Below, one piece after another: positions 3,293-20,626 of a stretch of DNA of 64,000 nucleotides. The first letter of the stretch is position 1. Each line of letters opens with the position of its first letter. Source of the stretch: Bacteriovorax sp. Seq25_V. Lineage in GTDB: Bacteria > Bdellovibrionota > Bacteriovoracia > Bacteriovoracales > Bacteriovoracaceae. Position numbers and translations under genes: made by a program. The notes below the pieces were generated by a model. The model did not search any database. It was not told the origin of the DNA and saw nothing but the letters and a program-made list of their open reading frames with translations. The stretch is from assembly GCF_000447795.1 (NCBI RefSeq), contig NZ_AUNI01000009.1, forward strand, positions 434,001 through 498,000. The letters are read 5' to 3'.

Positions 3293-6200
3293 CTAATCGA
3301 GAAGATACTCTGCTACTCCATAGAGACCATTTTGGTGAAAACCAAAAACTACTGAGTTTCGTGAGTCACTATAAATAACTTTTGAGCTTGAACAAGTAAT
3401 TGTACTTGAACTCCAAGTTAATTGAGTTTCTGTTGATGTGTTGTAAACATATTTATAGAGCTTACTTCCTGAACAGTAGAAAAACTCAAGGTTGCCATCT
3501 TTGTATCTATAATCAAAACCACCAATTCCTCTTGGAAGAGTTCTAAAAGCTGTTAGAGGACCACCATTGAGGGATGTATAAATTGTATCAGAACCAGAAT
3601 TTGTAAAAAACTCTTTTTCTATCCCATCATTAGGGTCGACGATCTTTCTAAACTTTGTAAATGTTCCACTTGTGGATAAATCACGTAAGTTAGTCCCCGT
3701 GGTCATCTGTAAAGAGCAGGTTGCACTAGAGTTACCCATGACGTGAGATTGTCGATACGAATCGGTCGTGTCATAAGCTTTCAATGTACAACCGTAGTTA
3801 CTGCCAGAGGCCCATGAGTGCTTACGGTAGTATAGCTTACCATCAATAAATCCAGCCGTTTCATTGTTATAACCTGAGATTAAGTTAATCGAAGAACCGA
3901 TGACACCATCTGTTGTTGAAAGGTGATACTGGCTTGAGCCGCCACCGACGACATAAGTTTCAGTGTTGGTTCCTCCTTCAATTTTTCCAATTCTCGAACC
4001 TCTAGGGATATAGATATCTCCAGTTGATTTATCAGTTTCAAAACCATAAGGACCATGCCATGAAGCGCCTGCGCTCGCGATATTTGTAATATTCCCGTCT
4101 ACTTCAAATTCTCTAACTTTATTAGTTAAGTTGTCCATCAGAACAAAAGTATTCGGAGCAGATGACTGTCTCAGCTGAATATCTGTTACGTTAGCGATAC
4201 GAGCACTCGTTGCAAGGACTCCATCTCCATATCCCGAAAATTGACCAAATATCGTTACAACTTTTCCATCGCCATCAATAGTTCTCAGTAGCCCATTATC
4301 CATGAAATAGTAGTTTCCTGTTTTTGTGACAAACGCAGTTTCAATATCAACCTGACAAGAAGTTGCAAGAGTCCCATCAGCACATGGAGTTGTTGAGTAG
4401 CTTCCCGTTCCTATAACATAATCCATCGTATTTGTCGCCGGATCATATTTTCTTAGACCTTGTCTAAAACGTTGAATGAGATAAAGCTTACCGTCCATTC
4501 CTGTCATTGCGACAGAATAAATGAATGGTAAATCATATGGCGCCACAGCAGGGTAGTCAGAGTTTTCACCTCCGGCCGTGTAATCAATTCTTGCAGGAAG
4601 TGGGTAAGAGTCTCCTGTGAAAGACTTGTGAATGTTTTGCGCCATAAACTCAAATGCCGAACTTGAAGTGTTATATGAGAACATCAGGTCGTGTTTTGAT
4701 CTCGATGTCCAATCATAAGTAGAGTCACTTGTCACACCCTGTCCAGTAACATTGATTAATTCGATTTTATTGTCGCTTGCACGATATCTTCGATGGTGTA
4801 ATGAACCCGTTGGCGCAGTGAAAATAATATCTCCATTTGGAAGAGGTACTAGTGTACTTCTATAGGCATCAAAGCCTCCAAGTGAAATGTCTGATGAGTT
4901 AACTGTTGTTAGTGGATCAGTTTGAGCTCCACCTCCAATAATTGTTTCAATAATTCCTGTGCTGATATTGACACGTCTTACAAGATTAGAGTCCCAAATT
5001 AAAAGCCTATTTTGGTGATCAAGAGCAATTGCACTAGGATGTTTTAGCGTTGCACTTGTAACGTTGCCACCATCGCCAGAGCTTGTTCCTGTTTTTTGAA
5101 TATAGACTTCCAGGTTTCCGTTTGATGGATTAACCCAAAGTAAGCCCCTCGAAGGATCGATGTAGAAAAACTTACCGTCATCACTGACGACTAGTTTATT
5201 CTTATATCCGTAGGCGTTAGATACTGCAGAACCGAATCGATAAAATACAGCAGTACGAGCTGAACCATTAAGTCCGTGTTCTGTATTCCCAGCAAGAATT
5301 CTAAGTTTTGATTCATTTAGCACTGGGGTGTTGTAGAAAACTGTTGTTCCTTCATTATCAGCAGCAATAACTCTAACCTTGAAATAACCACTTGTTGGAG
5401 CAGCAACCATCTTGCAGCCTGTGTATGAACCGTTTAATGTACAGCCTCCATTAGAAGCATTTAGTAAATTCTGACCACCTGGTAAGTCGACAAAGTTAAC
5501 GTCGTCAGTACTATATTTTAAACTTATTGGAGTCGCACTTAATCCTTCAACGTCGGATGCGATCCACGACACATATAAATTTGCCCCCGAAGCAACGATA
5601 AACTCACTTTCTACTGGTGGATTTGAAGGTACATCTACGTTTACCGCAAGAGCATCAGAAACGGTTGGAGGATTATCTGGTATAAAGTTAATTGCAAAGT
5701 GATCAGTGTTTATAGTCCCTGTGTTGTCTGATACGTTCCCGGCCTCATCCATTACCCAAGCATAGATGTCGTAGTTACCACCAGCAAATCCTAATAGTAT
5801 ATAGTAGTTAGAAAAAGAAATGCTTTGAGCTGGAGAAATTCCTGGTGATGAAGCATCGACTCTAATCCAACATTTGTCAGCATCTGCAGGCAACGTATTA
5901 TCACCAATTTTTAAACAAAATTTTATAATCTTTGAAACGCTATCAGATGCACTAAGAGAAGATGTCACGTTTCCTGAGTTTGTCGTTGTTACTCCACTGT
6001 TTAGGCTTAGAGATGTTAACGTCGGCTTCGAAATATCTGTGGTGAGGTTAGCTGTTGAAACGGTTTGGTTACCAGCTAAGTCAGTAAAAGTAATTTTAAA
6101 TTGTAGAACTTGTCCATTTGTATTTGGGGTTGTTACTTGCTCAAGATATGGCCTTTGAATTAATGGACCATTTGAAGCCGCAATAGTTGTTGTCGCCCAA

Positions 6201-7780
6201 GAAGTTCCATTGTGATATTCAAAAGTAATACTCTGTGAGCTTGAAGCATTTTTCTCTGTCAGTTTAAATTTAACATCTGCGACACTTCCACCCTTGATGA
6301 AAGACTCCATGTCAAACTCAATAGTAGGGTTTGTCACATCGTAATAAACGATTAAGTCATTAGACGTTGCTGAAACATTTCCATGGGAATCTTTTGACCA
6401 GGCCTTTAGAGTGTGTGTGCCTTCTGTAGAGTTTTCTAAAGTATGAGTGATTGCCCCTGCTGTTGTCGAACAAGCCTGCCAATTAGCATCGCCCGCTAAT
6501 GGTTGAGATCCCTCATTAATAAGTACTTCACTAATGTCTGAACACGCTGATACTGTTATTGCTTGTCCTGTTACATTTCGATATTGTGTGTGCGCTAGCG
6601 AAACTGTTGGTGGGGCAGATGGTGTTTTGTCTGTCACGTTAATCGTTATTGTCGCCGTACTTGCAGCATCGGCAGTGCCATCATTTGCGATATAAGTGAA
6701 TGAATCACTTCCGTGATAATTAGTATTTGCCTGATACGTACAAGTTAAATCAGAGCCATAGCTTCCTGTAACAATACAGTTCGATAAAGTCCCATTTGAT
6801 GGTGTTGTAACTAATTTGTAGCTTAGCGAGTCACCATCAATGTCGAATGCATTTGTAATGGTGAAGTTAAGAGGTGCATTGTCGTCAGCTGAAAAAGTTT
6901 GGTTGCTCGCCATCACTGGGATGTCGTTGATTGGATTTATAGTGATGTTCACCGTCGCTATATTTGAATCTGCTGTTCCATCATTAACCTTGTATGTGAA
7001 TGATGTCGATCCATTAAAATTTGCTGTTGGGGTATAGGTACAGGCCGTAGAGTTTCCTCCTGTACAAGAGAGAGTACCGGAAGATGGATCTGTCACTTTA
7101 ATATATGAAAGAGTATCTCCTTCAATATCTGAACCTGTCGCAAGATTGAAGTTTAATACTGTGTCTTCATTTGTAGCAAAGGATTGAGGAGATGTCAGTG
7201 TTGGTGCATCGTTAACAGAATTTACAGTGATATTAACAGTCGCTGTGTTTGAGTCAAGCGCCCCATCATTAACTTTATAAGTGAACGAAACAGATCCATT
7301 GTAGTTTGCCGCTGGAGTGTATGTACAAGCAGTTGAAGTTCCGCCTGCACATGTAAGAGTTCCGGATGCTGGGTCTGTGAGTTTTGTGTATGTTAAAGTA
7401 CTGCCCTCAATGTCGCTACCCGCTCCTAGACTAAAGTTTAAGACTGTATCTTCATTTGTAGCATAAGACTGTGGCGTAACTAGTGTTGGAGCATCATTAA
7501 TAGGATTTACTGTAATATTTACGGTTGCAACATTTGAGTCAAGAGAGCCATCATTAACTTTATATGTGAATGAGACCGATCCGTTATAATTTGCCGCCGG
7601 TGTGTATGTACAAGCCGTTGATGTTCCGCCAGTACATGTAAGTGTTCCAGAGGCCGGATTTGTAAGTTTAGTGTAGGTAAGAGTGTTGCCTTCGATATCT
7701 GATCCCGTAGCGAGATTGAAATTTAGTACCGTGTCTTCATTTGTCGCAAAAGACTGTGGCGTCGTCAAGTGTTGGTGCAT
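3293..7780 (-). pseudogene. Giant cadherin-repeat surface protein, C-terminal part after frameshift
   Basis: This frame holds the last 1,495 codons of a gene that begins at 11459. Residues 1-385 are four tandem cadherin-like/bacterial Ig repeats (units 5-8), each starting with a PQSFATNEDTVLNF-type strand and ending VNDGxxDSxxATVNITV-NDAPTL. Residues about 390-740 are further Ig-like modules (DSHGNVSATSND, FTDLAGNQTVSTAN). From about residue 820 the sequence changes to a beta-propeller-like region with NHL-style blades (ILAGNTEHGLNG, YIDPSRGLLWVNPSNG, FGQFSGYGDG), ending at the C-terminus. The apparent ATG at 7780 is internal to a repeat and is an artefact of the shifted frame. The likely role is a secreted or surface adhesin-like protein; the propeller may bind a ligand. 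If translation really stops at the frameshift, this part is not made. Confidence 0.75.
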
Positions 7781-8950
7781 CGTTAACAGAGTTTACTGTG
7801 ATATTAACAGTAGCCGTGTTGGAATCAAGTGAGCCATCATTAACTTTATACGTAAACGAAACTGAGCCATTGTAATTTGTCGCTGGAGTGTATGTACATG
7901 CCGTTGATGTTCCGCCTGTACATGTAAGAGTCCCAGAGGCCGGATTCGTAAGTTTTGTGTAGGTAAGGGCATTGCCTTCGATATCTGATCCCGTAGCGAG
8001 ATTGAAATTTAGTACCGTGTCTTCATTTGTCGCAAATGATTGTGGTGTCGTAAGTGTTGGAGCATCATTAACAGGAGCAATATTAATTGTTACAGTTGAA
8101 TATGTTGCTGAGTCCACAATGCCATCATTCACTCTATAGGTAAATGAATCTGTGCCAAAGAAGTTAGCATTTGGTGTGTAATCGCACGTTACATCTGTTG
8201 AATATGAGCCTGTTGTTATACAGTTAGTTAAAGCCCCATTCGTTGGTGCAGATACAATTTTATAACTAAGTGTCTGTGAAGGTATATCGATATCACTACC
8301 ACCATTTAGGGTGAATGATACTAGCGTGTCTTCGTTTGTCGATACCGATTGATCTGCGAGCATTGTTGGAGCATCATTTGTATTGCTGATGTTTAGAGTA
8401 ACCGTTGCCTCGCTTGAATCCAAGGCCCCATCATTAACCTTATATTTGAATGTGTAAGTATTAATATCGTTACTTGCAGGAGAGTAAGTACACGCATTTG
8501 ATGTTCCGCCTGTACACGACAGTGTTCCAGCAGCAGGGTTCTGAGTAATGATATAAGTTAGAGTGTCCCCATCAATGTCAGAACCAAGATTGAGACTAAA
8601 ATTTTGTGCTGTATCTTCTATAACTCCTACAGTTTGAGTTGATGAAAGTGTTGGTGCATCATTTACTGCAGCAATATTAATAGTGACAACAGTAGTAGTT
8701 GCAGAATCAGAAAAGCCATCATTTGTTTTATAAGTGAAGCTGTCCGTACCGTTGAAGTTTAAGTCTGGCGTGTAGAGACAAGAGAGGTCATTGTCTGATG
8801 ACATACAATTGGTAAGAGTTCCATTTGATGGTGCCGTAACAATTGAATAGGTCACAGGATCTGAGTCGATATCAGTTCCAGCCGTCGCAGTAAAATTTAG
8901 TGGCGTATCTTCATTCGTTGAAATTGCGTAGTCACTAGGAGAAATAGGAC
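6620..8950 (-). repeat. Eight tandem cadherin-like repeat units, about 285-300 bp each
   Basis: Eight units of 94-101 residues lie head to tail. Each has an ED dipeptide in the first strand, a D(I/E)D/DIEG calcium-type turn, a pair of cysteines flanking a GTL(S/T)C or NC...C hairpin, a Y(N)GxxSFTYKVNDG strand and an NDAPTL linker. Units 4 to 7 (about 6915-8060) are the most alike. A 65-bp stretch is identical at 7686-7750 and 7972-8036. The PF17963/PF17892-type fold assignment is from pattern recognition. Confidence 0.85.
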
Positions 8951-11459
8951 TATTATTAGTAGAAGTAAAAGATAGATTGATACTTGCTGAATCCAGTCCA
9001 CATGTCCAAGTAAGTGTCGATGATTTTGCGCCTTTCGTTACTGGTTTAGGACGAACAGAAACTTGACAGTTGCTTCCTGCTGCAAGTGTGCTTGAAGCGC
9101 ATCCATCTGTAGTAATTTCAAATTCACTAGAATTCGTCCCACTCAGACTCGGTGGAGAACAATCTTTTGTTGCCGTATTTCCTGTGTTTAAAATCGTTAG
9201 CGCCGTGGCACTTGGAGTTGAACTATTTAGTACGCCTCCAAAGTCAAGGGATGAAGGAGAAAACCCTAAGATCGGTCTTTGTATGTCAATTTGTGATGTT
9301 TCTTGAATCGTGTTGTTTCCAATTGAGTCAGTCAGGCTAACTCTAAATTTACCATTAGTTGTCGCGATATTTGGTAAAGTATATGTTGTACTAAAACTTT
9401 GATTATTAAGCACTCCATCTGCCGATGAGACAGCTGGCAATGAGACCCAAGTCGACCCGTTGTAGTATTCAATTGAATGCTGATTACTAGAAGTCTGATT
9501 ACTCTCGGACACTGTCCAGCTAAGAGTAAATAATGTGTCAGCTCGTGCTGACGATGGTACACCTACAAAATTAATGACTGGTCCCGCAGTGTCATAGTTA
9601 ATTGTGAAACTTTTCTTTGCACTGATATTCCCATTGATATCTTTTGCCCATATGTTGATGTCAATATCACCATTACTATTAGTGAGTGTATAAGGAATTG
9701 TTTGTATGTTCGCTGTTGTACAAGAGTAAGTAAAATCACTATTACTTGGAATATCATTGTTCTCAGTTATTGCAAAAGAAGAAAATGATTCACAGTTTGT
9801 ATAATAGCTTCCTTGATCTGTTCCTGTTGATAGATCAATATTGATATTGGCCGTAGGCGTAGGGTTTGTTGAAGAAGCATTTAGGCTGATATTTGGTGCT
9901 GTCGTAGCTATGTCGTCAGATATTGTTATGTTGTAGGTCAGTTCATGATATGGGAAGTTACGGTCTACATCGCTGCCTGCACCGCTGACGGCCTTACCAA
10001 TATAAAGTTTGATAGTCTCTGCTCTCTTCGAATTAGCCGAAGGTGAATAGTTCCATGTTGCGAGGTTTGATTTCTTTACATTGTCTGCATGCCATTCAAA
10101 TGCTGTTGTATAACTAGAACTCCAGTGTTGAGTATTTACAATGAATGAACTCGCCACTTTCTCTTGTAGAACTGAAGGTATTATCAGGTTTGTAATGTCA
10201 GGTGCTGAATCTGCTAGAATTGAATACGGCTCTCCTTCGAAAGCGTCAGAAAATTTATTTTGAATTGCTGAATCATTCTCTACTTCAGAGTAAGACACCT
10301 CAAAATCATCAGTAGGATTTATTCTATTGTCTACTTCTGTGATTATTGCTTCAACTTTTGTCCCTTCAATATTTTCAATATCAACAGTCGCAGAAGTTTT
10401 GATAATTTTAGATACTAGAGTCGATGTTGGAGTCAAGTTTTGGTCAGTGTAATAACTCGTGATGATCCTCTCATAATTTACATCACAACCGGAAGTCTTT
10501 AATAGGTATTTAGTAGGTTTGCTCAAATCTAAGTCAAAGACAGCTGGATTAAATTCAAACCGCGTTGTCGAAGAGAGGGATTCTATCGTAATCGGATTGT
10601 CTGCAAGAGGCGTCATTGTCTTAATGTCAAAAATTGTTATTTTTGGACTCGTGCATGTTGATGCAGAGTAAGCTTCATTGATGAAAAATGATTTTGTTCT
10701 CGATGCAATTATTCCATTTAATGGTGGAACACTTCCTTTAATCATTGGAGTCGAAGCGACTTCAATCGGATCTGTTCGTGACGAACTCCCTGATGATGAA
10801 CCTTCTGAAGAAGAAGATGTTGATTCATCAGAGCTTGAGTTAGCGCTAGAATTTTGACTACTGCTAGGACTTGATAAATCTGACGCAATAGAGCCTGCTC
10901 CTGTCAATGCTGAAGCCTCACTCTGTGTTGCTGAATCTCCAGTATTTACAGAATTGCTAGATTCTTGAATATTTGAAAGAGTTCCATCGGCCTGATCGTA
11001 ATAAGCACTAGGTGATCTTTGGAGTGAATTATTTGAAGAGAACGAGTTATTTGTATTACTAGAAGCTGTAGAAAATGGATTACTACGTACCTCTCCATAA
11101 TAATTGTCGTTATCTTCTTCAGTTCTTTTTGCCGAGTAATTTCTCTTAGTATCTGAATCTGGCTGGGTATTATTAAAGTTTCTATTAGAAACACTTTGAG
11201 AAATAGAGCTTGGTTCTCTCTTTGTTGCTCGAGAATCGGAGGTGCTGTTAGAAACGACTTTTTTTGAGGCAGCTTTACCTTTGTTAAAACTATAAGTTGA
11301 ACTTGGAGTTATATTAACGGGCTCAATAGAATTATCTAAGTTATACTTAACAGCTATCGAAACCGCCACGATTGTTAAACCGAATAAGGAATATTTAAAA
11401 TAAGAAACCATTAATAAAACCCTTGTCGCTAACGTTCTGTATCGGATTTTTATACTCAT
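7737..11459 (-). pseudogene. Giant cadherin-repeat surface protein, N-terminal part before frameshift
   Basis: This frame holds the first 1,240 codons. Residues about 12-38 form a hydrophobic signal or membrane anchor, with a possible alternative start at ATG 11411 behind AAGGG. Residues about 55-235 are low complexity, rich in Ser, Asn and Thr. Residues about 620-725 are an Ig-like module (SASWTVSES-type, EYYNGSTWVSLP). Residues about 730-835 match a choice-of-anchor/ASPM-like domain (SSLDFGGVLNSSTPSATALTI, with four cysteines). Four cadherin-like repeats follow. In unit 5 one extra C at 7766 (plus strand) moves the frame, so the protein ends in nine foreign residues (DDATVFCDK). Removing that base gives a single frame of 2,722 codons from 11459 to 3293. 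Function is inferred as a cell-surface adhesin or matrix protein. Confidence 0.78.
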
Positions 11460-13135: not shown

Positions 13136-13636
13136 TTGAGAATATTGTTTGGGAATAGGGATTCTTTGAAGCTATATAAAATTTTAATTTCAACTCTGAC
13201 TTTGAGTGGAATCGCAACATTTATTTGGTTTGTCATATTTACTGCGCCCGTAAGTTTTGTAGTTTCAACAATGATTTATTCTAAGGGATACTCTTATTTG
13301 TCAGATGATCCGAAAGCTTGTGTGAACTGTCATGTTATGCAAGATCATTTTTATGCGTATGAGAAATCATCACATCATGCTGTCGCAAATTGCAATAGCT
13401 GTCATACCCCGGAGGGATTTCTTCCGAAATATCTTTCAAAAGCAGTGAATGGCTGGAATCATGGGGTCGCATTTACGACTGGGGATTATCCATGGCCATT
13501 AAAAGTAACACAATTCAATAGGAATATTACAAATAAGGCATGCTTGAAATGCCATAGCGATCTTGTACATAATATAAATATCAAGTCAGAGACAAACTGT
13601 ATCCAATGTCACTCTGAAGTGGGGCACATGAAATGA
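13136..13636 (+). CDS. nrfH: Cytochrome c nitrite reductase, small tetrahaem subunit NrfH
   Basis: A NapC/NirT-family quinol dehydrogenase that feeds electrons from membrane menaquinol to NrfA. Of 166 residues, about 17-46 form the single membrane anchor. Four haem-binding motifs follow: CVNCH (62-66), CNSCH (86-90), CLKCH (136-140) and CIQCH (155-159). Length and motif count match NrfH. The start is TTG 13136; another TTG at 13166 behind AGGG is possible, and no ATG precedes the membrane segment. The gene overlaps nrfA by four bases (ATGA), so the two are translationally coupled. A candidate FNR-type box lies upstream at 13034. Confidence 0.92.
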   Translation: MRILFGNRDSLKLYKILISTLTLSGIATFIWFVIFTAPVSFVVSTMIYSKGYSYLSDDPKACVNCHVMQDHFYAYEKSSHHAVANCNSCHTPEGFLPKYLSKAVNGWNHGVAFTTGDYPWPLKVTQFNRNITNKACLKCHSDLVHNINIKSETNCIQCHSEVGHMK

Positions 13637-14967
13637 AAAATTTTACTAAGAGAAGAGTACTACTAGCTTTAATATCAATTTTTGTAACAACAAGTTGTAT
13701 TCTCTTAGTACTGAATATTCTTGAAAGAAAAACTGAGGGAAAATTTCAAACCGTGCACTTGAAAGATATAGGTGAGCTAGAAGATGATCCGGCCGTTTGG
13801 GGAGTTAATTTTCCTTACCAATATGAAGATTACTTGAAAAATGTAGATCAAGTTAGAACACGTTATGGTGGTAGTGAAGCAGTTAAGAGGGTTTCTGATA
13901 GTTCTGATCCTAGGGAGATTGTAAGCGAAGATAAACTAAAAATTGACGAGCGCTTTGTCACGATGTGGTCAGGTTACGCATTCTCTAAAGATTTTAGAGA
14001 GGAGAGGGGCCATGCGTTTATGCTGATTGATCAGCTATACACGAAAAGACAAAATGTTGGTCAACCAGGAACTTGTATTAATTGTCACGCTTCTACATAT
14101 TCTGCAATGATGAAGCTCGGTGATGGTGATATTAATAAAGGCTTTCATGCTCTTAATAAATTACCATATTTTGAAGCTGCTAAAAACGTAAAGCATCCTG
14201 TTAGTTGTATTGACTGTCATAATCCAAAAGATATGAGTTTGAGAGTTACACGTCCTGCTTTTGTTGAGGGAATAAGGGAATTCAAAAAAAGTGTTGGCGT
14301 CCATGAGTACGATGTGAACAAGATGGCCTCGAGACAGGAAATGAAAACTTTTGTGTGTGCTCAATGTCACGTTGAATATTACTTTAAGGGCAAAGATAAG
14401 ACACTAACTTACCCATGGGGTAAGGGGCTTAAGGGAGATGAGATTCTTAGCTATTATAATGAAATCGATTTTAAAGATTGGACCCATAATCTTACTAAAT
14501 CTGCAGTGCTCAAGGCACAGCACCCAGAGTTTGAAACATACTCTCAGGGGATTCATGCGCGAAGTGGAGTGAGTTGTGTTGATTGTCATATGCCTTACAA
14601 AAAAGTAGGAGCGATGAAAATTACTGATCACCATATCAATAGTCCAATGCTTAAAGTGAATCAATCTTGTCGTACTTGTCACAATATCTCTGAGGACAAA
14701 CTACTTGAGCGTGTGGCCGTTATTCAAGATAATAATCATGAGATGAAAGATACCGTTTTTAATGCTCTTGTATCTTTCATTAAAAAAATTGAGGCAAATT
14801 CAAATCATCCAAAAATTGAAGAACTTCGAAAAGCGCAAAGGGATGCGCAATTTCTTTTCGATTTTGTTGAGGCCGAAAACTCAAATGGTTTCCATGCCCC
14901 TCAAGAGTCGGCGAGAATATTGCTAAAGTCACTTGATATAATTAGAAAAGGGGAAGAGCTTCTGTGA
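13633..14967 (+). CDS. nrfA: Ammonia-forming cytochrome c nitrite reductase NrfA
   Basis: Catalyses six-electron reduction of nitrite to ammonium in the periplasm; it can also reduce NO. The 444-residue protein has an N-terminal hydrophobic export or anchor segment (residues 9-28) and five haem motifs: CINCH (148-152), CIDCH (192-196), CAQCH (242-246), CVDCH (315-319) and CRTCH (346-350). The first, active-site haem uses CxxCH rather than the CxxCK of E. coli; CxxCH forms are known from Campylobacter and several NrfA clades. The Lys-Ala-Gln-His motif (294-297), which supplies the calcium ligands and catalytic His, and the Tyr after haem 3 are present. No assembly genes such as nrfEFG are adjacent, consistent with CxxCH needing only the standard lyase. 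Confidence 0.94.
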   Translation: MKNFTKRRVLLALISIFVTTSCILLVLNILERKTEGKFQTVHLKDIGELEDDPAVWGVNFPYQYEDYLKNVDQVRTRYGGSEAVKRVSDSSDPREIVSEDKLKIDERFVTMWSGYAFSKDFREERGHAFMLIDQLYTKRQNVGQPGTCINCHASTYSAMMKLGDGDINKGFHALNKLPYFEAAKNVKHPVSCIDCHNPKDMSLRVTRPAFVEGIREFKKSVGVHEYDVNKMASRQEMKTFVCAQCHVEYYFKGKDKTLTYPWGKGLKGDEILSYYNEIDFKDWTHNLTKSAVLKAQHPEFETYSQGIHARSGVSCVDCHMPYKKVGAMKITDHHINSPMLKVNQSCRTCHNISEDKLLERVAVIQDNNHEMKDTVFNALVSFIKKIEANSNHPKIEELRKAQRDAQFLFDFVEAENSNGFHAPQESARILLKSLDIIRKGEELL

Positions 14968-15100: not shown

Positions 15101-17536
15101 ATGTTTACTAGGATTAATCTCTTTAGAATAGTTTTAAAAGGACTCACTTTTCTTAGTTTGAGCTCATGCCTCAATCCTCTCGTTGATGTTCAGATTGATA
15201 AAGACGGTAGTGCTATCTCATTTGGTGGATCAGGTAGCTCTCTTTCCTTTGCGACTTCATCTATTTCTGTAATGGCCGGCGACGATATTATTATCACGTC
15301 GTCTAATGGAACAATTCCATACTCTGCTACGACAATAAATTATGGATCATTTAATGCTGGAACATCGACATATTCTGCACCTTCAAGTCAAGGACCTGTC
15401 AATCATGTTATTAGCCTCGATGATTTTCTTGGGGTGAGTGGAGATCTAACTGTTAACATTTTAGGTTTTGGTGAAGAGGCTCTTGTTGATTTTGAAATGG
15501 GAGCCTCGTGGCAAAATTACCCAATGAGTTTAGTTCAAACGACTGATGGTTCAATCTATCTCTCTGCTATTTTTGGAGATGGAGGTCTTGGTTGGGAAGG
15601 AGCTGCTATCTATAAAAGTATAGATAATGGCGCAAGCTGGTCACGCTCCGATACATATTTTATGTACATTGAAGGTGAGTCTCATTCGCTTCAACTGGCA
15701 GCTAAAGATAACGATGTTTATTCATGTGGATACACCTTTGGGAGCGTAACTTGGAATACAGAATGGTATATAAGAAAAACTTCGAATGGGGGAAACTCCT
15801 GGAGTACAATTGATCATTACATGCCAATTAGTGGAGATATTTCTTGTTCTGCAATTGCAGTCGCACCAAGTGGTGATATCGTCGCCGCAGGAAATGATGA
15901 AAATGATGATGTCTATATTAGGACAAGTAATGATGATGGTGTAACTTGGACAACTATCGAACAGCTATCAGGTATTGGTGAGCTTTATGATATGAAGATT
16001 TCTCCAAGTGGGGATATTTGGTTATTAGTAAGCGATAAAATCTATGTCGGCTCATTCTCTGGAAGCTGGAGTTGGAGTGGCCCACATCAAATTTCTGCTC
16101 TTACATTTAGTTGGGTTGCATATCAAAAAAGAGGAAAGATAGAATTGGTTTCTGATTCTGAAGCTTACTATGTAGGTCGAGTTGGAGGGAAGTGGCAAAT
16201 CTTTAAAACCACTGATGGGGGAGTGTCTTGGACAGGTGTTTACGACTACGGAGCGACCTCGGAGGGGGTCGATGTCATTGTTCTCTCTACAGGGGAGATA
16301 ATATCATCTGGAAATAATGCCACTAGTACTCACAATCATATGGTGGAGAAGAGTATTGACAATGGACTAAGCTGGACTCAGACCTTAAATGTTGGGGGGA
16401 CTACTTCGGCAAAGTATGAGGGTAATTATTCTTTTGAACTTCAAAATGGTGATGTTCTAACAATTAGTTCAGATTATAATACCGACGGGATGAAGATTTA
16501 TAAATCCTTTGATAAGGGAGATTCCTGGAATCTCACCTCTCATATCTATTATTCATCTTACACATACTCAAGCCTCGATGATTATGCAGAGGATGCAAGT
16601 GGAAATATGTATGCAGTTTCCTACATTGCACCTCAGGGAGATGCTGATCCAACTTCTCCTTTTGCCATTTCTAAATCTGCTGACAATGGTAACACTTGGA
16701 CGACCATTGGTTATGAAAGAACTCCTGGTGCACATCTTTGGTGTTCAGAGCTTGAAATAACAAACCTAGGTCATTTGTTTGCGATTAAAAAGAAAGACGT
16801 TAAAGAAATACGATACTCTATTGATAATGGAGTTTCTTGGAGCAATATTGCTGCTTCAAATAGTGTAAACGAGCTTCATCACTTGAGAGCAGTTAGCAGT
16901 GGAGAGCTTTATTATCTCGAAAACGAGGTTTTGAAGAAAGTCTCAGCAGACGGGTTAACAGTTACGGATGTTTATACCTTCGCTATTGCCAGTGGGCAAT
17001 CATCACTTGAAGCTAAACTGAGACTGGAAGTTATGAGTGATGACACACTCGTTGTTAACGTAAGGTATCGTGATGGGGGAATCACAGAAACGATGTCAAT
17101 TTTTACCTCAACTGATGGTGGGGGAACTTGGAATGAAAAATTAAAAATTGCTTCATCTACTTTTGCAGCTCCATATCTGTTTACAAATGGAACTAGTGAT
17201 ATTTACTATATCTTAAGCGGAAAGATTTACGAGAGTAAAGATCGGGGCAATAGTTGGAATGAGATCTACGATGGCTCATTAGGTAGTGCAAGACACATAG
17301 TATTTTCTTCAGATAATCAGCTCTTCTTCTCTGCTGGAGATAATGTAATTACTTATTCAAACGTTAAAGCAAGTTGGTTTGTCGTTTGGAGTTCTGCTGT
17401 CGCTATCACACCTGATTATGGCAGTGAAATAGCAAATCTCATCAATTGTAAGTTAAGCTCTAAAAGAGTTTGTGTTGTTGCTGTAAACTATAATAAGGGA
17501 CTGGATAGTGCGAATTATATTTGGCCGTTAAATTAA
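15101..17536 (+). CDS. Asp-box (BNR) repeat lipoprotein
   Basis: An 811-residue surface protein. The N-terminal signal ends in a lipobox LSSC with Cys23, so it should be lipid-anchored. About ten Asp-box motifs (S/T-x-D-x-G-x-x-W) are spread at roughly 45-100 residue spacing from residue 170 to 720, for example KSIDNGASW, KTTDGGVSW, KSFDKGDSW, TSTDGGGTW and ESKDRGNSW. This pattern marks beta-propellers of the sialidase/photosystem-assembly (BNR) type. No sialidase catalytic Arg/FRIP motif is evident, so a binding rather than hydrolytic role is more likely. The stop codon abuts the next gene's ATG directly, so the two are probably cotranscribed. Confidence 0.82.
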   Translation: MFTRINLFRIVLKGLTFLSLSSCLNPLVDVQIDKDGSAISFGGSGSSLSFATSSISVMAGDDIIITSSNGTIPYSATTINYGSFNAGTSTYSAPSSQGPVNHVISLDDFLGVSGDLTVNILGFGEEALVDFEMGASWQNYPMSLVQTTDGSIYLSAIFGDGGLGWEGAAIYKSIDNGASWSRSDTYFMYIEGESHSLQLAAKDNDVYSCGYTFGSVTWNTEWYIRKTSNGGNSWSTIDHYMPISGDISCSAIAVAPSGDIVAAGNDENDDVYIRTSNDDGVTWTTIEQLSGIGELYDMKISPSGDIWLLVSDKIYVGSFSGSWSWSGPHQISALTFSWVAYQKRGKIELVSDSEAYYVGRVGGKWQIFKTTDGGVSWTGVYDYGATSEGVDVIVLSTGEIISSGNNATSTHNHMVEKSIDNGLSWTQTLNVGGTTSAKYEGNYSFELQNGDVLTISSDYNTDGMKIYKSFDKGDSWNLTSHIYYSSYTYSSLDDYAEDASGNMYAVSYIAPQGDADPTSPFAISKSADNGNTWTTIGYERTPGAHLWCSELEITNLGHLFAIKKKDVKEIRYSIDNGVSWSNIAASNSVNELHHLRAVSSGELYYLENEVLKKVSADGLTVTDVYTFAIASGQSSLEAKLRLEVMSDDTLVVNVRYRDGGITETMSIFTSTDGGGTWNEKLKIASSTFAAPYLFTNGTSDIYYILSGKIYESKDRGNSWNEIYDGSLGSARHIVFSSDNQLFFSAGDNVITYSNVKASWFVVWSSAVAITPDYGSEIANLINCKLSSKRVCVVAVNYNKGLDSANYIWPLN

Positions 17537-18601: not shown

Positions 18602-18955
18602 TTAGGCATAGGCATGTTTTATGCTTTCATGATTTTTCTGATTATTGAATCTTCGCTTCTTCCAATCCATTAGCTGTTCTTCGATATCTGCTTCCATATG
18701 CAAATAGCAGTGATAGGGATTGTGTGCTATTTTTCTAGAATAAAAAGTTTCTGTTAATGATTTAACCATAATTTCGCCAATGTATCTAGATTTTCGTTTT
18801 ACAAAGTTTAAGGCAATAGAACAATGAGCAGGACATTTTTCTTTGAGGATGTCCATGCGTTTTCTAATCTGTTGATATTGAGTTTGACTAAGTTCAATAC
18901 CAAAATAATTAACATTCGGTTCATGTGAGATTTGTAAGTCTCTTTCAAATAACAT
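18602..18955 (-). CDS. S30AE/HPF-like ribosome-associated protein (divergent)
   Basis: A 117-residue protein whose layout fits the ribosomal hibernation factor fold: an N-terminal strand and helix (QTQYQQIRKRMDILKEKCP), then strands SIALNFVKRKSRYIGEIMVKS, then LHMEADIEEQLMDWKKRRF, as in HPF/RaiA proteins where the last helix ends in basic residues. Family membership is inferred from pattern, not a strong motif. AAGGAGG precedes ATG 18955 at good spacing, so expression is likely high. It diverges from a second S30AE-like gene and an Hsp20 gene, which suggests shared stress control. Confidence 0.6.
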   Translation of the reverse strand: MLFERDLQISHEPNVNYFGIELSQTQYQQIRKRMDILKEKCPAHCSIALNFVKRKSRYIGEIMVKSLTETFYSRKIAHNPYHCYLHMEADIEEQLMDWKKRRFNNQKNHESIKHAYA

Positions 18956-19307
18956 ACTGCCTCCTTGTTAATGTTGAAGGTCAAAGTGTTTCTAAATCTT
19001 TAATGAATTAGTCAGATATATAAGATCCTGAAATTAGAACTCTTTGACCGTGACATATAAAAAATAATATCAAAAATATGAACGTCAATATTTCAAGGAA
19101 ATTTTTTTTTAGTTTCTAACCTTGACACTATTCCTTGCGATACCAGATTAAAATAAATAGATCGACGGAGGGTCTTAAGTTATTACGTTTGAAGATAAAT
19201 ACTTAATTTTTCTAATTTAAAAGCCAAACACTTTTAGGTAGCAAAGAGAGAACTAGGTAGATATTTTTGAAGTGTTTCTCTTTGCAATATGTGACAAGGA
19301 GATGCAT
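18956..19307. promoter_or_regulatory. 352-bp divergent regulatory region of the stress locus
   Basis: This gap between divergent genes holds a perfect -35 hexamer TTGACA at 19122-19127 pointing rightward; the -10 that should follow is weak (AGATTA or GATTAA near 19145-19151). It also holds an inverted repeat GGTCAAAG/CTTTGACC (near 18975 and 19036), and two overlapping hairpins next to the start of the rightward operon. A transcript starting after the -35 would have a leader of roughly 140 bases. No small gene is evident. Confidence 0.45.
19226..19285 (+). promoter_or_regulatory. Candidate structured leader with two competing hairpins
   Basis: Two perfect stems interlock. AAACACTT (19226-19233) pairs with AAGTGTTT (19270-19277), and GCAAAGAGA (19241-19249) pairs with TCTCTTTGC (19277-19285). 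The 3' arms share one base, so the stems compete or form a pseudoknot. The element ends 10 bases before the AAGGAG of the downstream gene. A switch or thermosensor role is inferred from its position before a small heat-shock operon. Confidence 0.4.
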
Positions 19308-19637
19308 ATGATAAGTCCATTAAGTGAATTAAATGTCCTAGGAAATGTACGTTTTTTCAATCTCAGAATAAATGAGGATGATGAGCAAGAGATTTACTCG
19401 ATTCTCTCTCCTGTTAACTCATTATTTCGCGCTCATAAAAATAACTCGATTTATATTTTTAAAGATGGTGAGAACGTTCATGCCGAGGCCCTTATTAACA
19501 TCAATGGAATTTTAAGAAAATCCCAAGCAATGGGGCAATCCGCAGTCGATGTTTTGAAAAAACTTGTTCCTCGTATTTTGAAGAACACTTCAATGATGGC
19601 TCGAGTATATGAAAGAAATTATGAACTAGTGGGGTAG
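19308..19637 (+). CDS. Second S30AE/HPF-like small protein
   Basis: A 109-residue protein. ATG 19308 is chosen because AAGGAG ends seven bases upstream; the ATG at 19302 directly abuts that site. The core YIFKDGENVHAEALININGILRKS, then SAVDVLKKLVPRILKN, has the strand-strand-helix pattern of S30AE ribosome hibernation factors (a strand with an alternating A-E-A pattern, then a helix pairing subunits of the fold). This is a structural guess without a decisive motif. It is the first gene of an operon with the membrane Hsp20 (stop TAG directly before the next ATG) and a CxxC membrane protein. Confidence 0.55.
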   Translation: MISPLSELNVLGNVRFFNLRINEDDEQEIYSILSPVNSLFRAHKNNSIYIFKDGENVHAEALININGILRKSQAMGQSAVDVLKKLVPRILKNTSMMARVYERNYELVG

Positions 19638-20192
19638 ATGATGGATAAGACAAAAAATAATATCTTACTTATTGCTGCTGCATTTATTTTTGGAGGACTT
19701 CTTACTTACTTCATTACTGACTACATCAGATTGAAACAAGGCGATCTGAATAGAGACAGGGTAAGATCAACTAGAAATCTTGAATTAAATGATCCTTTCT
19801 CACAAATGGATAGGCTTCACCAACAAATGCAAAATAGAATGAATAGCTTTTTTAGTTCGTCCCTGTCCGATATAGGGTCATTTGAGAGTATGGTGAGTGA
19901 TGACATTAAAGTCGAAGAATTTGAAGATGATAAATTTAAGTATGTGAATATCATCACTGATGGAATTGATAAGGACTCCCTAAAAATGGATATTGCTAAT
20001 GGAATGATATCTATATCCGGACAAATATCGAAAACAAATAATAGTCAGTCACCAAATTCTACTGCAATCTCTAGCTTTACATCAAGTTTTGCTCGTAGCT
20101 TCACAATTCCAGATGGTGTAGCTGAAGACAAGGTTGTTGTTGATACAGACGATGATAAAATTATAATCAAGTTTCCTAAGGTTAATAGTTAG
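19638..20192 (+). CDS. Membrane-anchored Hsp20/alpha-crystallin protein
   Basis: A 184-residue small heat-shock protein with an unusual N-terminal membrane segment (residues 8-26, LLIAAAFIFGGLLTYFITD). The region DPFSQMDRLHQQMQNRMNSFF resembles sHSP N-termini. The alpha-crystallin domain follows (VEEFEDDKFKYVNIITDGIDKDSLKMDI, GMISISGQI, SFARSFTIPDGVAEDKVVVDTDDDKIIIKFPK). Most sHSPs are soluble; this one would be tethered to the inner membrane, with the domain probably in the periplasm. It begins on the base after the preceding stop. ATG 19641 is an equal alternative. It sits in an operon with an HPF-like protein, implying a stress role. Confidence 0.82.
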   Translation: MMDKTKNNILLIAAAFIFGGLLTYFITDYIRLKQGDLNRDRVRSTRNLELNDPFSQMDRLHQQMQNRMNSFFSSSLSDIGSFESMVSDDIKVEEFEDDKFKYVNIITDGIDKDSLKMDIANGMISISGQISKTNNSQSPNSTAISSFTSSFARSFTIPDGVAEDKVVVDTDDDKIIIKFPKVNS

Positions 20193-20206
20193 AAGGAGGT
20201 TGAAGT

Positions 20207-20626
20207 ATGAATGAGAAAGTTAGTCGTCAAACCACAACTCAAGTAAGAGATTTGCTCTTTTTTTTAACAGCACCTGTAATATATCTTCAAGTTCTACCGG
20301 CACTTCTTATTGATGTATTTGTGACAATATATCAAAAGATATGCTTTCCCATTTATGGAATTCCGCTTGTCGAGAGGAAAGATTATGTTAAGTTTGATCG
20401 ACATTTGATCAAATTTTTAAATCCTATTCAGAAATTAAATTGTCTGTATTGCCGTTACTTTAATGGGGTAATTGCTTATGTGAAGGAAGTTGCCGCACGT
20501 ACCGAGGTTTTTTGGTGTCCTCTTCGCAATCTGAAGAGAGTTGGAGAACATGAGTATTATAAGAATTTTGCACATAGGGATGATCATAATGAGTTTAGAA
20601 AACGCTATAATCGCTGGAGCTCTTAG
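20207..20626 (+). CDS. Conserved membrane protein with CxxC, stress operon
   Basis: A 139-residue protein behind AAGGAGG. It has one or two hydrophobic segments (residues 15-50, LLFFLTAPVIYLQVLPALLIDVFVTIYQ), then VKFDRHLIKFLNPIQKLNCLYCRYFNGVIAYVKEVAARTEVFWCP. The CLYC and later Cys could form a redox or metal site facing the cytoplasm. I recall similar unnamed proteins in other proteobacteria but know no function. It is the last gene of the operon starting at 19308. Confidence 0.7.
   Translation: MNEKVSRQTTTQVRDLLFFLTAPVIYLQVLPALLIDVFVTIYQKICFPIYGIPLVERKDYVKFDRHLIKFLNPIQKLNCLYCRYFNGVIAYVKEVAARTEVFWCPLRNLKRVGEHEYYKNFAHRDDHNEFRKRYNRWSS

Follow-up and report, generated by a model that had tools for sequence, protein, structure and literature searches.

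Two predicted S30AE-fold proteins and a membrane-anchored Hsp20 at a divergent locus of Bacteriovorax sp. Seq25_V, a possible heat-shock module

The closest described counterparts of the locus analysed here are the S30AE ribosome hibernation factors, namely the short form of HPF, RaiA/YfiA and the N-terminal domain of RafH, together with the stress operons of Balon, in which, according to the available part of PMC10901736, hibernation-factor genes adjoin genes for Hsp20 and RaiA, providing a precedent for pairing ribosome hibernation with Hsp20. A comparable association was found in Bacteriovorax sp. Seq25_V (genome size 3.45 Mb), in a stretch of 64,000 nucleotides hereafter called the window (contig NZ_AUNI01000009.1, positions 434,001 to 498,000), where four genes labelled A, B, C and D occupy positions 18602-20626. 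While Balon is aeRF1-like (PMC10901736, same part), this locus encodes two predicted S30AE-fold proteins, A and B, and the Hsp20 of its operon, C, is membrane-anchored. An original prediction made from the sequence alone had presented the arrangement as unfamiliar, a view that we abandon since related arrangements recur in relatives of the strain and hibernation genes beside Hsp20 are known from the Balon operons. In the literature searched, mostly outside subscription journals, we recognised no paper on the A family, on an anchored Hsp20 in these bacteria, or on a pair of facing S30AE-fold genes accompanied by such an Hsp20.

Gene A (18602-18955, minus strand, 117 amino acids (aa), AAGGAGG upstream) encodes an S30AE-fold protein of what is here called the W-K-x-x-R family, and gene B (19308-19637 within a full open reading frame (ORF) of 19272-19637, plus strand, 109 aa) encodes a second, more diverged one. 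The likely start of B is the ATG at 19308, with AAGGAG six bases upstream and several relatives starting with M-I or V-I; this start places exactly 352 base pairs (bp) between the start codons of the two divergent genes. The start of C (19638-20192, plus strand, 184 aa), an Hsp20 with an alpha-crystallin domain and an N-terminal membrane anchor, directly abuts the stop codon of B, and D (20207-20626, plus strand, 139 aa), an accessory protein with a hydrophobic N-terminal half and four cysteines, begins 14 bp past C behind the strong ribosome-binding site AAGGAGG. Because of this spacing B-C-D reads as an operon. The ORF listing, the 352 bp interval and the position of B at the head of an operon with C and D all agree with the original prediction.

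Computation gave predicted folds for A and B, genetic linkage of A-type genes to Hsp20, a promoter match upstream of B and targeting signals on relatives of C. On the strength of these four features, we read the locus as a heat-shock (sigma32-type) module for two compartments that pairs ribosome silencing with envelope protection, a reading to which we give a probability of roughly 0.48. In what follows, labels beginning with L denote loci and those beginning with G denote genomes, with L126, L128 and L129 belonging to the window's own genome.

Predicted folds and altered residues of A and B

Neither A nor B exceeded the cut-off of any family in Pfam or NCBIfam, and PF02482 was matched by neither of them in Pfam even at E ≤ 1; it was matched at E ≤ 0.01 by 4 of the 35 A-family members (best 5.6e-5). 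A match of B to MU2_FHA was weak, below the cut-off, and was set aside. The profile of A, built from 35 A relatives (alignment A1, which excludes the long ORF of L077 and three weak A matches, L031, L071 and L081), retrieved the ribosome-associated factor Y as its top match among PDB sequences (E 0.003), all of its first seven matches being entries for factor Y, YfiA/RaiA or HPF. For A, the AlphaFold model (predicted local distance difference test (pLDDT) 86.6) shows the element order β-α-β-β-β-α, and when it was searched against the PDB with Foldseek, rows 1-33 were chains of hibernation factors (best E 2.7e-6), a few of them titled ribosome only, in which we take the chain to be the hibernation factor. 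VIA-align gave Z 14.1 to 6h4n_x, the factor in the E. coli 100S ribosome (root-mean-square deviation (rmsd) 1.9 over 95 residues), with double-stranded RNA (dsRNA)-binding domains and other rows at Z 8.8 or lower, and hhalign comparison of the A family with the 19 standard S30AE domains of the class reached a probability of 96.2 (E 2.4e-9). Likewise, the model of B (pLDDT 88.6) had 12 Foldseek matches in the PDB at E ≤ 0.001, all of them hibernation-factor structures, and was aligned at Z 10.9 to 8fmw_W, the factor in the ribosome of the Lyme agent (rmsd 2.2 over 93 residues); the B family was connected to the A family by hhalign with a probability of 94.2 (E 1.1e-7).

An S30AE (HPF/RaiA/YfiA) fold is thereby predicted for A with high confidence and for B with good confidence. 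The original prediction of two S30AE-like proteins, and of profile searches and structure prediction as the means to judge it, is borne out in that the models of both proteins match hibernation factors first, sequence profiles add support for A, and the A-B profile comparison does so for B; it had named a fold prediction in which neither protein is S30AE-like as its refutation, and both predicted folds are S30AE-like. As in the described S30AE factors, the predicted element order extends over the whole domain in both proteins, and the profile of A reaches those factors by sequence. They differ from them in being missed by Pfam and NCBIfam, and from long HPF in that proteins of 109-117 aa are too short for a second domain.

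Several of the results speak against this assignment or against a standard function. In the search of the A profile against PDB sequences, unrelated proteins appeared from E 0.05 onward. For B, the weakest hibernation-factor rows (Z 7.7) overlapped a row for a dsRNA-binding domain (Z 7.8), the alignment behind the model also held A-type rows that possibly helped it, the family's own profile retrieved no HPF among PDB sequences, and its profile comparison with the standard S30AE set was weak (probability 37). Four S30AE genes detected by Pfam lie elsewhere in the same genome, one of which immediately follows a sigma-54 gene. Finally, a basic residue (K/R) at position 39, present in 19/19 standard domains, was found in 0/35 family and 3/39 phylum A sequences; at position 90 the corresponding counts were 19/19 against 7/35 and 16/39, and Tyr 81 (19/19 in the standard set) was kept in 3/35 family members, including the A of the window, and in 1/39 from the phylum.

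Other positions gave a more graded picture. Gln 94 occurred in 18/19 standard domains, 28/35 family and 32/39 phylum A sequences, and K/R at position 33 in 19/19, 22/35 and 7/39, respectively. Position 33 is basic in the A of the window, which also keeps Tyr 81 and Gln 94; positions 36, 39, 82, 90 and 97 are not kept. Overall, the near-invariant S30AE residues of the class, i.e., the helix-1 lysines, the helix-2 Tyr-Lys and a further helix-2 Lys, were largely not kept when the 35 + 39 A and six B sequences were compared with the 19 standard domains. In their place, P42 and W98 were present in 74/74 A sequences (35 from the family and 39 from the phylum), R102 in 72/74 and K/R99 in 69/74, where the 39 phylum sequences had been chosen with a profile that already held these four residues. 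Judged from these alignments, A is a member of a Bdellovibrionota family marked by W-K-x-x-R, in which the predicted S30AE fold is kept with few of the standard conserved residues.

The foremost alternative is that A and B retain the fold for another purpose: in place of the decoding cleft of the ribosome, the W-K-x-x-R family would bind another RNA, such as stress mRNAs, or a protein, such as a partner of the adjacent chaperone. The loss of most near-invariant residues together with the gain of P42, W98, R102 and K/R99 would fit such a change, as would the separate standard S30AE genes in the same genome and the resemblance to dsRNA-binding domains in the lower structural rows of A and B. It is countered by the basic end of helix 2 in A (K99, R102) and by the positive mean net charge of A (+3.1 and +3.9), as well as by the linkage to Hsp20 described below, which suits a role in stress such as other hibernation genes have; on balance we find repurposing doubtful, though it is the main rival. 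In RafH, contacts with the 16S rRNA come from basic residues of helix 1, helix 2 and the sheet (PMC10799931, in the part available); A has the basic end of helix 2 but lacks the standard helix-1 pattern.

Distribution of the A family and linkage to Hsp20

Within the class, A was matched in 32 of 129 genomes and B in 6 of 129, one of the latter (G046) only via an unrelated AAA protein. B-type matches inside long ORFs were dropped, namely that of G046 (436 aa, an MgsA-type AAA protein) and the second match of G045 (a 437-aa frame), and the B-like gene of L060, missed in the class-genome search for B, was picked up by profile only. A search with six A proteins yielded five records (Bacteriovoracaceae bacterium UBA3083, Bacteriovorax sp. 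BSW11_IV, Halobacteriovoraceae SAT1401 and two Halobacteriovorax sp.); a related-locus search with a single A protein returned 25 stretches, none of them a relative, and the full A alignment offered no conserved stretch usable for a search of this kind. Conservation was also checked across Bdellovibrionota, where the A profile matched in about 185 of 368 genomes at E ≤ 0.001, an approximate count, since no more than 12 candidates per genome were scored and standard S30AE proteins may be among the weak rows. Outside the family, 40 places in as many genomes were fetched, working down from the head of the list and skipping some entries, and 39 of them held an A-type ORF above 45 bits. No match to A was obtained in plasmids or phages with one tblastn query each (A of L165 and the A of the window). 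Additionally, a third kind of small S30AE-like ORF was observed directly after or near A (L048:5535-5855, L049:5547-5828, L050:5743-6024, L057:5602-5889, L070:7068-7370 and L077:5225-5527), the L049 copy matching PF02482 only at E 0.049.

For the analysis of linkage, loci were found via A and Hsp20 genes were called with our own profile; L077 was counted, and L187, which carries an anchored and a cytoplasmic Hsp20 followed by an A gene cut by the contig end, was not. In the family, 10 of 36 loci, spread over eight genera, had an Hsp20 gene no more than 1.5 kb from the A-type gene, and the same was true of 5 of 39 from other families (f3, f4, f6 and f8). Based on 43 PF00011 matches at E ≤ 0.001 in 16 family genomes, the chance expectation is about 0.003 per locus, and the binomial tails were 1e-17 for the family and 1e-7 for the other families, values that are not strict probabilities given that the loci are related, that the family density was applied to both groups and that our profile is more sensitive than Pfam. 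Because of this difference in sensitivity, the tails were recomputed at threefold and fivefold Hsp20 density, the latter giving 9e-11 for the family and 3e-4 for the others. Among the linked Hsp20 proteins, 18/19 reached PF00011 at E ≤ 0.001, with that of L044 at 0.0053; the Hsp20 of L060 fell just under the PF00011 cut-off. Hsp20s without an anchor or signal face, precede or follow A in L049, L050, L051, L057, L070 and L077 and in L185, L193 and L196, and anchored or signal-peptide Hsp20s accompany B or A in the window, L044, L053, L060 and L070, in L078 (with B), in L165 and L181, and in L187.

The remaining partners of the locus are more loosely connected. D has four cysteines, two of them in C-x2-C, and a hydrophobic N-terminal half, and no family exceeded the cut-off for it in Pfam or NCBIfam; a weak GtfA_EBD match below the cut-off was set aside. 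It was matched in 5 of 126 class genomes, in three of which (L235, L236 and L237) the context is a different one, with the cysteine-containing D-type membrane proteins lying amid unrelated genes. The original description of a CxxC membrane protein is thus upheld as to the motif and the hydrophobic half, and its tie to the operon has to be loosened; judged from these contexts, D is a presumptive, loosely attached accessory. In several relatives the operon continues with an ABC ATPase, an ABC-2 permease and a PF09822/DUF7088 protein, a set that we take to be a GldA/GldF/GldG-type (gliding-motility) transporter. According to Pfam, these three genes follow C in L044 and L060 and D in L043; in L078 the permease and the PF09822 protein, and in L070 the ATPase, were identified by Pfam, with the remaining genes fitting in order and size. 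In contrast, the transporter genes are missing from the operon of the window, and the one other PF09822 gene of the genome (L129) lies beside ORFs that by eye resemble an ATPase and a permease. In L043, A faces D and the transporter without B or C, and parts of the locus have therefore been exchanged.

A second alternative is that A, B, C and D are gathered as in a general stress island, without a joint mechanism and at most under common heat-shock control. The occurrence of D in unrelated contexts, the lack of the ABC genes in the window, the presence of B in so few class genomes and the 26 of 36 family loci that have no Hsp20 within 1.5 kb of A would all agree with such clustering, but the recurrence of the A-Hsp20 linkage in eight genera of the family and in four further families makes it, in our view, an unlikely account of the locus.

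Promoter, leader and the anchored Hsp20

The words CTTGACA and CCTTGAC were enriched upstream of A genes, occurring in 12/29 and 11/29 regions against 0.85 expected. The pattern CTTGA[ACT]-N15-17-CCANNT was present in 6 of 36 A upstream regions, whereas 300 shuffles gave 0.39 on average and at most 3. In the window, a sigma32-like promoter, CTTGAC-N16-CCAGAT, lies on the plus strand at 19121-19148, 159 bp before the start codon of B, and is directed at B. It is a relaxed fit to the delta-proteobacterial sigma32 signal CTTGAAA-[N11/16]-CCCCAT given in the available part of PMC545781. Genome-wide, CTTGA-N17-CCAKNT had 26 sites against 6 for the reversed pattern. Eight of these are CTTGAC sites: one precedes B-C-D, five precede genes encoding FxsA, Hsp20, HtpG, a ClpB-like protein and FtsH, a further one is situated about 0.3 kb ahead of a Clp_N/AAA gene, and the last falls inside an ORF; 15 of the other 18 are within open frames of at least 150 codons. 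The genome also encodes a putative RpoH-like sigma factor (TIGR02392, E 8.6e-76).

Some features argue against heat-shock control. In the six A upstream regions that have the pattern, it points at A in three and at the facing gene in three, and the A of the window has no site of its own. Of 20 tested genes, only four, among them the B of the window, were preceded by a slightly looser pattern (shuffles 0.12), and most relatives are therefore without it. The RpoH-like factor, at 255.4 bits, stays below the curated cut-off of 323.1, and a Bdellovibrio factor with RpoH-labelled BLAST hits was judged unlikely to be RpoH in the part of PMC3464611 available.

The untranslated leader of B contains a hairpin (19241-19285, plus strand) whose internal sequence is similar in three genera (window, L044 and L078). 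An RNA thermometer was considered for this leader and is not supported: the z of its fold energy was only -1.67, the Shine-Dalgarno sequence was more open in the real leader (mean unpaired 0.91 against 0.52, with 95 of 100 shuffles at least as buried; for L044 and L078, this comparison used start codons placed three bases late), and the consensus fold of the three leaders was a different structure. In Rfam, the leader matched no family, apart from one chance match at E 0.15.

C reached the Pfam HSP20 model PF00011 at E 6.5e-7 (29.8 bits, cut-off 20.8), and a hydrophobic segment begins at its residue 9 (mean Kyte-Doolittle 2.29 over 19 residues), so that the membrane-tethered Hsp20 of the original prediction is supported on both counts; matches to glutaredoxin models were weak, below the cut-off, and were set aside. 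In addition to the alpha-crystallin domain that it shares with Hsp20/IbpA proteins, C differs from them by its N-terminal anchor (an anchor or a signal peptide in its relatives), its probable periplasmic site and a very short tail past the last strand. By eye, the protein ends five residues past K-I-I-I-K-F, leaving no room for a separate tail; a C-terminal I-x-I tail motif serves oligomer assembly in Hsp20 proteins.

Anchors and signal peptides were judged by eye and by hydrophobicity. On this basis the C-type relatives in L060 and L053 and the own-genome paralogue L126:1746-2243 carry a signal-peptide-like N-terminus instead of the anchor, and another Hsp20-type gene of the same genome, L128:5194-5670, has an N-terminal anchor. 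A FastTree phylogeny separated the anchored and secreted Hsp20s, except that of L053, from the cytoplasmic Hsp20s, although several of its nodes were poorly supported. This grouping, and the signal peptides that related copies have in place of the anchor, make it probable that C exposes its chaperone domain to the periplasm. A membrane-bound C facing the cytoplasm, which would guard the inner membrane from inside in the compartment of A and B, could draw on the roughly balanced charges flanking the anchor and on the Hsp20s without anchor or signal at other A-type loci, but against these signal-peptide-like N-termini and the tree it is improbable. The available portion of PMC10490939 contains no periplasmic Hsp20.

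Proposed role and significance

Taken as a two-compartment heat-shock module, the locus would respond to heat or envelope stress by switching on B-C-D from the promoter at 19121-19148. A and B would most likely bind the decoding cleft of the 30S subunit as HPF, RaiA and YfiA do, thereby parking (or protecting) ribosomes, while C, held in the inner membrane by its anchor with its chaperone domain most likely in the periplasm, would hold unfolding envelope proteins. The GldA/F/G-like ABC transporter in the operon of relatives may be a client or partner of C. The stress role envisaged by the original prediction is thus favoured by the sigma32-like promoter and the recurring linkage of A-type genes to Hsp20, and its suggestion that the locus protects membranes survives as regards a stress chaperone, recast here as an envelope chaperone since related copies of C carry signal peptides.

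Elsewhere in the window, two very long ORFs (1495 and 1240 aa; 3293-11459), each with several Ig/cadherin-like domains, perhaps encode surface adhesins. They are followed by an NrfH/NrfA-type pair at 13136-14967, composed of a NapC/NirT-like cytochrome and cytochrome c552 (PF02335, E 9.8e-123), and by an 811-aa protein with BNR-repeat matches at 15101-17536.

More broadly, and tentatively, we suggest that Bdellovibrionota hold a large S30AE-fold W-K-x-x-R family that is mostly missed by standard annotation models and whose genes are linked to those of small heat shock proteins, an envelope-targeted class of Hsp20 among them. The family may constitute a heat-shock-specific silencer of ribosomes or RNA with a new binding mode, forming a module across two compartments together with a periplasmic Hsp20 and joined in some genera by a Gld-like transporter. 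Few factor families are known for ribosome hibernation, and a phylum-wide S30AE-fold family, most tested members of which are missed by Pfam, would, if true, widen this set; the predatory life of these bacteria includes non-growing attack cells. The tie to Hsp20 and, at this locus, to the heat-shock-type promoter would, if confirmed, mean that a single locus couples translation shutdown with protein holding. Descriptions of small heat shock proteins usually place them in the cytoplasm, and a class of anchored or secreted Hsp20s would, if real, be an unusual envelope chaperone.

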